From: Halomarina litorea
GTDB taxonomy: Archaea > Halobacteriota > Halobacteria > Halobacteriales > Haloarculaceae
Assembly (NCBI RefSeq): GCF_024227715.1
Contig: NZ_CP100448.1
Coordinates: 2,315,655 to 2,379,654 of the forward strand
DNA: 64,000 bases
Reading direction: 5' to 3'
The translations under genes and the position numbers were made by a program. The notes beneath the pieces were generated by a model, which had not been told where the DNA came from, did not search any database, and saw nothing but the letters and a program-made list of their open reading frames with translations. Of this stretch, positions 3,166 to 8,653 are shown in pieces (within the stretch, counting starts at the first letter, position 1; the number at the start of each line of letters is the position of its first letter).

Positions 3166-3201
3166 AAGGGGCACACCCGGCGTCCCGGGTCAAGCGTATC
3201 G

Positions 3202-3238
3202 GTCGTCCGGGGTCTGGCACTTTTTATTACTACCACGA
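3202..3238 (+). promoter_or_regulatory. original (host-side) promoter of the interrupted HFX_2341 gene
   Basis: A TATA-like TTTTTATTA (3221-3229) lies about 27 bp before the ATG at 3252, the spacing of a leaderless haloarchaeal promoter. It aligns without gaps to the promoter in front of the intact gene at 7695-7731 with about 29 of 37 positions identical. The palindrome seen there is degraded here: the left arm GTCTGG is kept and the right arm is not. After integration this promoter faces the integrase gene. Confidence 0.6.
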
Positions 3239-3307
3239 CGCCATGTCACGTATGCAGACGCACATCGTCCCGGTCGGGTTCGACTACGACCGGCTCATCG
3301 CCCCGCT
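3239..3307 (+). repeat. left attachment-site direct repeat
   Basis: These 69 bases are identical to 7732-7800. They cover the start codons and the first 18-21 codons of the HFX_2341-family gene (reading MQTHIVPVGFDYDRLIAPL) and end abruptly at CCCCGCT; beyond that the two copies differ completely. Identity up to an abrupt boundary next to an integrase gene is the pattern of site-specific integration (attL). Confidence 0.85.
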
Positions 3308-3389
3308 GCGCTCCGCGCGGGTTTCGGAGTCTGCTAATGGCAAACACCGACGCAACCCTCGAACCAATCGCGCCCGACACGGCAGTTGA
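3252..3389 (+). pseudogene. 5' remnant of HFX_2341-family gene left of the element
   Basis: The frame from the ATG at 3252 encodes the first 18 or so residues of the regulator (MQTHIVPVGFDYDRLIAPL), then runs into element sequence and stops at 3387-3389 after 45 codons. An upstream ATG at 3243 is also in frame. The open frame overlaps the integrase start (3337) in another frame. It cannot give a functional regulator; the intact gene is at 7745-8653. Confidence 0.75.
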
Positions 3390-4359
3390 GCTTTACCTGA
3401 CCGACCGGCAAGCCGAACTTGCTGCGGAAACCCTCTCGTCCTACGAATACAAGCTGAGTCACTTCACCGAGTGGTGCGAGCGGGAAGACGTCGGCAACCT
3501 CAACGACCTAACCGGGAGGAAGCTGCTACAGTTCAAGCAGGACCGAGCAACCCACCTCGCACCCGTCTCTCTCAAGGGACAGATGGACACGCTACGGTCG
3601 TTCATCCGTTTCTGTGAATCCATCGACGCGGTGGTAACCGACCTGCACAACAAGGTACTCTCCCCATCGCTGAGCCAAGGGGACCGGGAACGTGACGTGC
3701 TGGTAGCCAAGGAGCAAGCAGAAGACGTCCTGACGCATCTCGGACGATTCCAGCACGCTTCCATGCACCACGCACTACTAACCGTCCTATGGCGATGTGG
3801 GGCACGCTCAGGGACAGTGCGGGCGTTCGACGTGCAGGACTACGACCCGGAAAACGCATGGCTACGTGCTGTCCACCGAGAAGGCACGCCCCTCAAGAAC
3901 AAAGAGAAGGGAGAGCGATTGATTGCGCTCAGTCCGGACACCTGCCAAGTGCTGAACGACTACGTAGACCACACGCGCAAGCAAGTTGCCGACGACCATG
4001 GTCGGCAACCGCTGTTCACCACGCAGTTCGGACGGGTGTCCAAGTCCACGATTCGAGAAACCTGCTACAAGTGGACTCACCCGTGTCAGTTCAACGGTGG
4101 CGAGTGTCCGCATGGTCGGGACATGGACAGTTGCCAAGCTCTCACCCCACCTGAGAAGGCCCCGTCCGTGTGTCCATCGTCACGTAGCCCACACGCATGG
4201 CGACGAGGAGCTATCACCCACCATCTGACCGAGGATGTGCCGGTGGAAGTGGTCAGTGACCGCATGAACGTGAGTCCCGATGTGCTGGAAGCGCACTACG
4301 ATAGACGGTCAGAGGAGGTGAAGGTGGAGCAAAGGCGGGGGTATTTGGACGGGCTGTAG
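3337..4359 (+). CDS. tyrosine recombinase / site-specific integrase
   Basis: The 340-residue protein has a SAM-like core-binding domain (about residues 12-110) and a catalytic domain with the full set of family residues: Arg157 in RCGARSG, a lysine in the KNKEKGE beta-turn (187-191), His286 and Arg289 in PHAWRRG, and the nucleophile Tyr321 in EAHYDRR. Between them lies a Cys cluster (Cys243, 250, 257, 266; PCQFNGGECPHG) resembling the zinc-binding insert of haloarchaeal virus and plasmid integrases. The gene begins 30 bp inside the element, next to the left repeat, as expected of an integrase that acts on that site. In the integrated state it lies 85 bp downstream of the host promoter at about 3225. 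Confidence 0.92.
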   Translation: MANTDATLEPIAPDTAVELYLTDRQAELAAETLSSYEYKLSHFTEWCEREDVGNLNDLTGRKLLQFKQDRATHLAPVSLKGQMDTLRSFIRFCESIDAVVTDLHNKVLSPSLSQGDRERDVLVAKEQAEDVLTHLGRFQHASMHHALLTVLWRCGARSGTVRAFDVQDYDPENAWLRAVHREGTPLKNKEKGERLIALSPDTCQVLNDYVDHTRKQVADDHGRQPLFTTQFGRVSKSTIRETCYKWTHPCQFNGGECPHGRDMDSCQALTPPEKAPSVCPSSRSPHAWRRGAITHHLTEDVPVEVVSDRMNVSPDVLEAHYDRRSEEVKVEQRRGYLDGL

Positions 4360-5089: not shown

Positions 5090-5677
5090 TTATAGCCAAA
5101 TTACGACAGTCATTGATACCACGGTCCAGAGAAGGGTAGCCGCAACTACGATTGCATTACCTTTGTCCCGCGTTCGTGACTGGACCCACCGCCGTAGTTC
5201 TGTGAGTTTCAGGGTTTGGGCCGGGTCAAACGGGTGGAATGTGATTATATCGTGTTCTCGCTCTACGCTGTCTTTGTACTCAGCGAACACAATAGCATTA
5301 GGGCCAACCATTGCCCCAAGTTCCATATTTAGTTGATTCTCTATCGACTTGGGATGTCCAACTGCTACCTTGATACGCTGAACCTCGCCTGAGAGTGGAT
5401 AATACGAGTCAACCGCTTCTACTAACTCCTTGAATCCGTCCTCTCCCGTCTCGATTACGCCTACCCGTACCGACCCGGATTTGAATACGATTTCTTCCAG
5501 CGTGTCTATTCCATCTGTCGCTTGACGCCTATACCGTGAGAACCGGGGATACAATGGTGCAACAAGTCCAATTACGGCAGTGAGTCCGATTTGAAGCCCT
5601 CTCAGAATTGCCTCCCAACAGAGCCATGAAATACACTGAGAGACTACAGTACTGTTATGCGCTATGAGGAAACTCAT
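5090..5677 (-). CDS. two-helix membrane protein with a central soluble domain
   Basis: The 195-residue protein (from the ATG at 5677; a TTG at 5713 is the longer alternative) has a hydrophobic segment near residues 21-45 and a second at the very C-terminus (about 174-195). The region between, about 125 residues, is soluble and mixed alpha/beta in character (VRVGVIETGEDGFKELVEAV, VQRIKVAVGHP). With this arrangement both ends sit near the membrane and the middle domain on one side. I recognise no family. Its start overlaps the end of the zinc-ribbon gene, so the two are translated from one message. Confidence 0.6.
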   Translation of the reverse strand: MSFLIAHNSTVVSQCISWLCWEAILRGLQIGLTAVIGLVAPLYPRFSRYRRQATDGIDTLEEIVFKSGSVRVGVIETGEDGFKELVEAVDSYYPLSGEVQRIKVAVGHPKSIENQLNMELGAMVGPNAIVFAEYKDSVEREHDIITFHPFDPAQTLKLTELRRWVQSRTRDKGNAIVVAATLLWTVVSMTVVIWL

Positions 5678-5897
5678 TGTACGAGTCACAGTCAGGACAC
5701 TGAATAGTAGCAAGTATGTGAAAATTTGGAAATACTTCAGCTAAGCCGTTGTCACAGTTGTAACATGTATACTCAATATTTGATGGGTCTGTTGAGAATA
5801 CCGGAGTTTCATCGGGTATGAATAGCGGCTGCTCACCAGAGTCACTTCTTGACATGGCTTCCTGTTCGCTTATCGAGTCCATGCTAAGTTGGCGCAT
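5655..5897 (-). CDS. small zinc-ribbon protein of the element
   Basis: The 80-residue protein has an acidic Ser-rich N-terminal half and a single zinc ribbon: Cys45-x2-Cys48 and Cys67-x2-Cys70. Such modules usually bind nucleic acid or a protein partner. A TTAATA box about 31 bp before the ATG (rc of 5924-5932) is a likely promoter. It overlaps the start of the following two-helix membrane protein, which suggests the pair works together. I assign no specific role. Confidence 0.6.
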   Translation of the reverse strand: MRQLSMDSISEQEAMSRSDSGEQPLFIPDETPVFSTDPSNIEYTCYNCDNGLAEVFPNFHILATIQCPDCDSYNEFPHSA

Positions 5898-6527: not shown

Positions 6528-6631
6528 TTACGTAAACCGTCTAAAGAAACGTCTACGTAGACTTCTGATGGAATATAGGTTACGTAAACCGTCTAAAGAA
6601 ACGTCTACGTAGACTTCTGATGGAATGTAGG
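6528..6631. repeat. 52-bp tandem direct repeat (two units) with internal palindromes
   Basis: Units 6528-6579 and 6580-6631 differ at one base (6575 A, 6627 G). Each contains two perfect palindromes, TTACGTAA at its left edge and GTCTACGTAGAC in the middle (6551-6562 and 6603-6614), with the shared core TACGTA. The arrangement is like iterons or a tandem operator for a dimeric DNA-binding protein. No spacer separates the units, so this is not a CRISPR. Confidence 0.85.
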
Positions 6632-7704
6632 GAATCGTCACGACCATGGCGTTAGTTCTACAACCAACATGGGCAGAACTGAGGCATTCCTGAAATCGCT
6701 GAGGATTCCTCAGTTTAGCCGCTATTGTATTTCTTACTTAGGTTAGTACCAAACATCATATTTTGACTACTAATTGCTCAAAACGGCTCTCAAGGAATCA
6801 CTGAACCAGTAGTTGCCAGCGATACGGAAATTTTACCTTCAAATAAAATTTTCTCGACATGGGTTACAATCCACCATTACACTTTTGGTCTGTACCCTGC
6901 CCGTCTATAATAACACACAACAAGAGATGCGCTCAAGCGACTTCGCCACCGTCACCACAATAGTACGTCGCTCACTCCTTTCTCACATTCCAGCTACCGT
7001 ACTGCCACCGCAGATTTGAGCAGCAGTTATCTACCCCCCAACTTCTCGTCAACATTCTCAAAATCATGAGCGTGTTACTGGTAGCTGAAACTGGAAATTT
7101 TGTCTCGGAGTCACCTACTACAGAGCACGCACGCATCCGCTTCGTGTCAAAAGGGGGTGGGGAGGCTTTATCATCATCTGAGTACATCAATGCTCAGTTA
7201 CGTACGTTCCAATAGCCAGCCTCCCTCATACAGGGGTTCGCTGGGGGTGGACATGTGGCCATTGTTGTATGAGTCGATGACTAGTAGAGGTTCATAAATG
7301 CCAAGGTAAGAGATGGTGTGCTAGAGGAATACATAAATATAGTCTGTAGGACTAATGGCCGGTGTCGGATTTTCGAGGGCCAATTAATAGTTCCGCGCGC
7401 AGGGAAGGCCAAGGGTCAATCCCCGGCCCCACTGTCATCGTAGGCCGGTGGCCCGACCATGTGCTGAAGAGTGTGACCGGGGGTGCCCGTCTTGTTCAAA
7501 TGGGTTATCAAACGAGCTAACCAACTGGTACGCCCGCCAGTTGCTCACCACGTTTGACAAGCTTGTCGCGGTGCGATAACGGTCAAATGGTGTGGGGGCA
7601 GGTCGTCTCAGCCAAAAAACTAAGCTACCAGCCTACATCGATTCCTCAGAAGCCCGCGACGGCGCGGGGGCAAACATCGGTAATGTGTGGTTGAGTGGTC
7701 CGGC

Positions 7705-7731
7705 GTCTGGTACTTTTTATAAGTACCAGAC
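7705..7731 (+). promoter_or_regulatory. perfect palindrome over the TATA box of the HFX_2341-family gene
   Basis: Arms of 11 bases (GTCTGGTACTT and its exact complement AAGTACCAGAC) flank TTTAT, so the operator covers the TATA element itself. The TATA centre lies about 27 bp before the ATG at 7745. A protein bound here would block TBP; the winged-helix protein encoded just downstream is the obvious candidate. This copy is element-derived, and is more symmetrical than the host copy at 3212-3238. Confidence 0.75.
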
Positions 7732-7800
7732 CGCCATGTCACGTATGCAGACGCACATCGTCCCGGTCGGGTTCGACTACGACCGGCTCATCGCCCCGCT
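7732..7800 (+). repeat. right attachment-site direct repeat
   Basis: Exact 69-base copy of 3239-3307, here continuing into the intact gene. Together with the left copy it bounds the integrated element (attR). Confidence 0.85.
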
Positions 7801-8653
7801 CGTCCGGGACCAACTCGACGTGGACCGCGTCATCCTGTTGGAGGGCGCGGTGGGCAGCGAGGCCAACGTCGAGTACTCGCGGAACCTCGCGACGAAACTG
7901 GAGAAGGACTTCCGGAACCTCCTCGGTGCCGAGACGGAGCGGTTCGTCATCGAGGACGTCTACGACTACGACACGGCCTTCGAGCAGGCGTACGACCTCG
8001 TCAACGCCGAACTGGACCGCGAGGGGCGCGAGGAGGGGGAAGTGTGGGTGAACGTCTCCTCGATGCCCCGCACCGTCTCCTTCGCGTTCGCTACTGCCGC
8101 CCACTCCATCATGGTCGAGCGACAGAGCGACCGGGACCGCCTGCACACCTACTACACCGTCCCCGAGAAGTACCTCGAGACGGAACTCGCCGAGGAGTTG
8201 CGGGAGGGACTGGACCTGCTGGCGGAGGTGCGCGATTCGAGCGTCGACTCGGAGCGCGTCGACGAGTGGCTGGAGGGCGCACGTGACCTGCTCTCGGAGT
8301 TCGACGAGCGCGGGACGACCATCGGCGCGAAGGAGATAGCGGGGGGTCACGTCGTCGAACTCCCCGTCGCCTCCTTCTCGAACGTCAAGCCCTTCGAGGA
8401 ACTCATCCTGTTCACCCTCGGGGAGCACGGCGTCTTCGAGTCCGTCTCCGAGTTGGCCCAGACGCTCGCCCGCGATCTGGGCGAGGAGTACACCGACTCC
8501 TTCCGGTCGAAGGTTATCTACAACGTCGACCGACTGGGCCCGGGCGGGAAGGGGTACATCGAACAGGAAGAGCATGGAAAGTCCTACCGGACGCGCCTGT
8601 CGCGAATCGGAAGCCTGTGGGTGCGCTCGCACGCGGACGGCGACGAGCGCTGA
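7745..8653 (+). CDS. HFX_2341-family regulator: CARF-like sensor plus winged helix
   Basis: The 302-residue protein has an N-terminal Rossmann-like domain resembling CARF domains of Csa3-type regulators: PVGFDYD at residues 7-13, then VDRVILLEG, and a second ligand-loop-like motif VNVSSMPRTVS at about 102-112. The C-terminal part (about 214-296) is a winged helix (LFTLGEHGVFESVSELAQTL). Family knowledge suggests ligand-controlled transcription; a nucleotide ligand is an inference. The ATG at 7745 is chosen over one at 7736 because it gives a leaderless start 27 bp from the TATA box. A palindrome covers that box. The first 18 codons double as the attachment site of the element. Confidence 0.8.
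   Translation: MQTHIVPVGFDYDRLIAPLVRDQLDVDRVILLEGAVGSEANVEYSRNLATKLEKDFRNLLGAETERFVIEDVYDYDTAFEQAYDLVNAELDREGREEGEVWVNVSSMPRTVSFAFATAAHSIMVERQSDRDRLHTYYTVPEKYLETELAEELREGLDLLAEVRDSSVDSERVDEWLEGARDLLSEFDERGTTIGAKEIAGGHVVELPVASFSNVKPFEELILFTLGEHGVFESVSELAQTLARDLGEEYTDSFRSKVIYNVDRLGPGGKGYIEQEEHGKSYRTRLSRIGSLWVRSHADGDER

Follow-up and report, generated by a model that had tools for sequence, protein, structure and literature searches.

The window, i.e., the whole 64-kb stretch of DNA that was analyzed, contains a 4.5-kb integrative element inserted into the 5′ end of crr, a regulator gene of the HFX_2341 family whose name stands for “CRISPR-related repressor” (Table 1). A 56-nt att direct repeat brackets the segment that bears the integrase gene, and the target gene is intact at attR. 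The integrase scores 60.6 bits with the XerC profile and 51.8 bits with the XerD profile, both under the equivalog cut-offs, and matches Phage_integrase with an E-value of 2.6e-4, under the gathering score; the R..HxxR..Y signature of tyrosine recombinases is visible as HAWRR and HYD. The crr product matches the curated family NF051475 with 578.1 bits (cut-off 500) over residues 1–298 of 299 positions, and the match begins at the ATG at 7745. On the basis of the TATA spacing and of orthologues that start at the same codon, crr is probably leaderless from this ATG; an in-frame ATG also lies further 5′, at 7736. The two tandem 52-bp repeats of the element sit in a long stretch without clear genes.

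Table 1. Features of the element and its target gene (positions in the window)
Feature	Positions	Strand	Remarks
Promoter on host side of attL, with degraded palindrome (3212–3238)	3199–3251	+	now 5′ of integrase
attL: 5′ fragment of crr, 5′ of integrase	3252–3307	+	56 nt identical to 7745–7800
attL core	3279–3295	+	same sequence as attR core
XerC/D-like tyrosine recombinase	3337–4359	+	member of crr-targeting clade (100/100)
Element ORF, 102 aa	4433–4741	-	no family match
Element ORF, 207 aa	5090–5713	-	also in Halomarina rubra element L145
Element ORF, 80 aa, cysteine pairs (CxxC)	5655–5897	-	also in L145
Two tandem 52-bp repeats (98%)	6528–6631	.	possible replication iterons/origin
Conserved element end just inside attR, AAGCCC..GGGCAAACATCGGTAATGTG	7650–7700	+	alignment of 13 element ends; possible integrase arm sites
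Dyad, proposed operator over TATA box	7705–7731	.	axis 7718; kept with compensatory changes in element promoters
TATA box TTTTTATAA inside dyad	7714–7722	+	sequence; column shared by most ATG-anchored orthologue promoters
crr, regulator gene of the HFX_2341 family, restored at attR	7745–8653	+	NF051475 578 bits; Pfam HFX_2341_N, DUF7776; orthologues share start codon
attR core TTCGACTACGACCGGCT, codons 10–15	7772–7788	+	attL and attR agree there in nearly all pairs; flanks CCGGTCG / CGACCGG

The HFX_2341 family is present in 371 of 392 genomes of the order, i.e., in nearly every possible host. Its studied member, from Haloferax mediterranei, belongs to the same protein family as the window gene by the profile match above and, according to PMC11434293, is a global regulator whose over-expression represses cas genes. 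The same source describes a putative transposable element adjoining the gene and a hotspot of self-spacer acquisition; the part of it consulted mentions neither an att site nor promoter replacement, both of which are read in the window family. A sequence search of the PDB returned no relative. Paralogues of crr with about 40% identity occur in other genomes (L245–L264), several with an internal stop codon.

The window element belongs to a family aimed at crr. All recombinases at least 72% identical to that of the window have a crr fragment beside them, while none at or below 58% does, and the crr-targeting recombinases form one clade (support 100/100). Whole-genome searches of the genomes with multiple matches yielded 13 in which an attL comprising the first 15–21 codons of crr lies 1.6–21 kb 5′ of an intact crr; these carriers appear to include Halomarina rubra, Halomicrobium katesii, and Haloferax sulfurifontis. 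Because the identity common to all attL/attR pairs, where these have diverged, narrows to TTCGACTACGACCGG at codons 10–15, the exchange is placed inside the coding sequence, so that the element would supply the promoter and the first codons of the gene. The core is surrounded by the symmetry CCGGTCG-N10-CGACCGG, which answers, for one protein-coding target, the question raised in a review (PMC8371274) of whether such genes present the recombinase with dyad symmetry.

Comparison of both ends of the elements indicates that integration swaps promoters. In eight class A elements besides that of the window (L143–L148, L150, and L151), attL carries unrelated host-type promoters with 0–4 of 7 outer arm pairs matched, while attR carries the element promoter with 4–6 of 7 and the conserved element end upstream. 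The consensus of this attR promoter, found in most of the eight, is CTGGTGCTTTATATAAACACCAG, and the window attR promoter has all 7 outer arm pairs. Each element has one dyad, located at attR, and joining the flanks on paper into an excised circle places the dyad promoter 5′ of the att core and the integrase gene. From this arrangement, the element promoter is predicted to drive crr at attR, with the displaced host promoter kept at attL, facing the integrase. The first-pass annotation had suggested that integration alters the control of both genes; this part stands, in that their promoters are exchanged, while tighter self-control of the regulator through the palindrome is not supported. The attL of L150 carries a promoter type, CTTGAGGGGATT.., that is met again in other genera. 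A second recurring crr promoter, CTTGAGGGGATTAATAAACGTCCCC, nearly identical across genera, is seen in L031, L058, L064, L071, L078, L081, L183, and the attL of L150; it probably stems from a different lineage of insertions into crr.

The palindrome itself, GTCTGGTACTT-TTTAT-AAGTACCAGAC, proved exact: it has perfect 11-bp arms and a 5-bp spacer, and, as had been described, its axis falls inside the TATA box of the regulator, 27 bp 5′ of the ATG (−27). It is the sole perfect inverted repeat in the 64-kb window with arms of at least 11 bp and a spacer of at most 8 bp. Taken alone, the palindrome is not beyond chance because base composition alone yields a mean of 0.7 such repeats per 64 kb, with at least one in 16 of 40 simulations. 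Chance does not account for its placement on the TATA box, nor for the way in which related element promoters conserve it through compensatory changes.

This conservation is a trait of the elements. On average, 5.67 of 7 outer arm pairs are matched in element copies (n = 9), 3.79 in promoters with an element-type left arm and no detected element (n = 42), and 2.08 in all other, native orthologue promoters (n = 128), against 2.15 expected from random pairing; the element-type class was chosen by its left arm and the sequences are related, which limits these arm-pair figures. Elements differ from element-less promoters with a Mann-Whitney p of 1e-4, a value that is only indicative for related sequences, and “no detected element” covers only 1–6 kb upstream at some loci. 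Among 16 element or closely similar promoters, 10 double changes are seen vs 3.0 after shuffling (a count of 10 was reached in 0 of 500 shuffles), and 81% of cells are paired in register vs 28–45% when the arms are slid. Up to 51 of 179 distinct crr promoters may be element-derived, a count based on a loose motif that perhaps takes in some native promoters. The comparison of element promoters upholds the view that the palindrome arrives with the element, and the maintenance of its symmetry by compensatory change makes a symmetric DNA-binding protein likely. The check on orthologue promoters proposed in the first-pass annotation went against autorepression, with native promoters at background.

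The dyad is not essential, since L153 (with an integrase of the same clade) and L154 use the same target with an attR promoter devoid of a −27 dyad, and the dyads of L152 and L155 are weak. The attR promoter of L153 and L154 belongs to a third type, GATCAACACCATTAC, whose AT-rich, dyad-like segment lies near −53 rather than −27.

These observations are probably best explained by an element-borne operator-promoter that would serve the integrase gene as long as the element is a circle and crr once it has integrated. On this reading, the palindrome belongs to the promoter of the 4.5-kb element, which in the excised circle would be followed directly by the attP core and the integrase gene and serve the latter. 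The integrase would recombine attP with codons 10–15 of crr, after which the element promoter and first codons would drive the restored crr, and the host promoter would face the integrase. The parts of this explanation differ in strength. An element-borne promoter, its swap on integration, and a dyad that is kept in elements and weaker in element-less promoters are all read directly from the alignments. That the dyad over the TATA box is an operator, most likely for a symmetric (dimeric) repressor whose targets would be the integrase gene in the circle and crr in the integrated state, is proposed with moderate confidence. The integrase, a host factor, or Crr are possible binders. Against the explanation stand the elements with a weak dyad or none at −27, and a mini-ORF that begins at the att ATG and in several elements runs across the integrase start in another frame, which makes translation of the integrase from this promoter harder to account for.

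No real gene family other than the integrase was found in nearly all crr-targeting elements, and the dyad could conceivably be an accessory site of the integrase or an operator for its autoregulation, a doubtful reading. The arm variants track integrase clades (GGTAC in the window and L145; GGTGC in L147, L148, and L150), and the arm-spacer geometry resembles that of a core-type site. However, L153, whose integrase is 73% identical to that of the window, has no dyad, while L151, with an equally similar integrase, has one. Nor is the dyad the exchange site, since attB lacks it and the true core lies at a distance of 61 bp. The integrase promoters of the 50–58% identical relatives showed no comparable TATA dyad.

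Autorepression by a winged-helix regulator, put forward in the first-pass annotation, would have a Crr dimer bind the dyad and thereby repress crr itself, as well as the integrase gene when the element is a circle. A CARF-wHTH regulator is encoded right behind a symmetric site that sits on the TATA box, the crr family represses genes (PMC11434293), and its near-universal presence would make it available in almost any host. Against these points, the dyad is missing from native crr promoters, from the host promoters displaced to attL in class A pairs, and from the ~40%-identical paralogues. No further site occurs in the 3.9-Mb genome at up to 3 mismatches, though the family is described as a global regulator; a regulon search of the same genome for the dyad with a TATA box gave nothing besides attR and attL, and without the TATA box it gave 3 sites vs 2 for the control. 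In addition, the DNA-binding region of Crr hardly varies between hosts in which the arms do change, with compensation. Autorepression is thus unlikely, and Crr is a weak candidate for the dyad binder. A repressor encoded by the element was also considered and rejected: only the integrase is common to class A elements, and small HTH-type genes are present in some, with none recognized in the window element.

Improbable, too, is a divergent promoter in which a recognition sequence, the TATA box, and a mirror recognition sequence yield divergent transcripts with no operator. The TATA box is itself palindromic in several elements (TTTATATAAA), and L144, L147, and L150 have a reverse ATG at the mirrored spacing, but none is found in the window, L143, L145, or L151, and the dyad arms do not resemble the known haloarchaeal BRE. 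A functionless chance palindrome, to which the expected 0.7 repeats per 64 kb lend some color, is very improbable given the same register in nine elements, the compensatory changes, and a dyad that weakens in element-less promoters and is absent from native ones.

The degraded copy at 3212–3238 has 3 mismatches to the motif. It had been called the host copy, and it does lie on the host side of attL; the label fits its sequence less well because the window attL promoter is of the element type with a decayed dyad, while the promoters of sister Halomarina genomes are of other types. On the simplest reading, an earlier insertion into this site most likely left it behind as a scar.

Two known systems resemble this arrangement. 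pTN3-like archaeal integrases use an attB in the 5′ half of tRNA genes; there, too, the element restores the 5′ part of the target gene, and the integrase promoter then drives expression of the recombinant gene (PMC8371274). The layout for such promoter capture is present in the window family, where it is known from sequence. pTN3-like elements have a tRNA target and a split integrase gene, whereas the element of the window targets a protein-coding regulator, keeps its integrase ORF whole, and has a dyad over the TATA box. Archaeal integration into protein genes is already known (PMC8371274, section 19). SpyCI chromosomal islands insert into the 5′ end of mutL (PMC3430984), likewise altering the expression of a conserved protein gene, and in a decayed island an internal promoter drives mutL. 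SpyCI, however, normally silences mutL, and the rescuing promoter is cryptic and lies in an int pseudogene, whereas crr elements would bring a matched promoter and first codons. The literature searched held no report of crr as an integration target.

Thus, a universally conserved haloarchaeal regulator able to repress cas genes appears as a repeated insertion target whose promoter the elements replace, which offers a plausible reason for the transposable element that PMC11434293 places beside the H. mediterranei crr locus. Whether mobile elements steer crr to their own benefit is now a testable question. More speculatively, a family of haloarchaeal elements might be specialized in taking over the transcription of a conserved repressor of the CARF type that acts on cas and metabolic genes; each would insert at the start of its coding sequence and equip it with a promoter bearing an element-tuned operator. 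If so, one switch site would govern integration in the circle and host defense and metabolism in the provirus, and many present-day crr promoters would be remnants of takeovers. A hijack of CRISPR is not favored by co-occurrence: Csh2 (type I-B) is encoded in 120 of 392 genomes but in only 2 of 13 carriers, and in 0 of 5 Halomarina genomes, so carriers show no type I-B enrichment, and the genome of the window has no type I-B Csh2 gene.

Neither the integrase nor the dyad nor the att fragment had a match in scans of IMG/VR, and ARAGORN found no whole tRNA beside the 50–58% identical integrase relatives. In L152 (G272), the promoter and 5′ end of crr form a 1.6-kb duplication with no recognized integrase, in which the upstream copy reads ATA instead of ATG. 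The larger elements L143, L148, and L151 carry big ORFs that resemble restriction-modification or other cargo.
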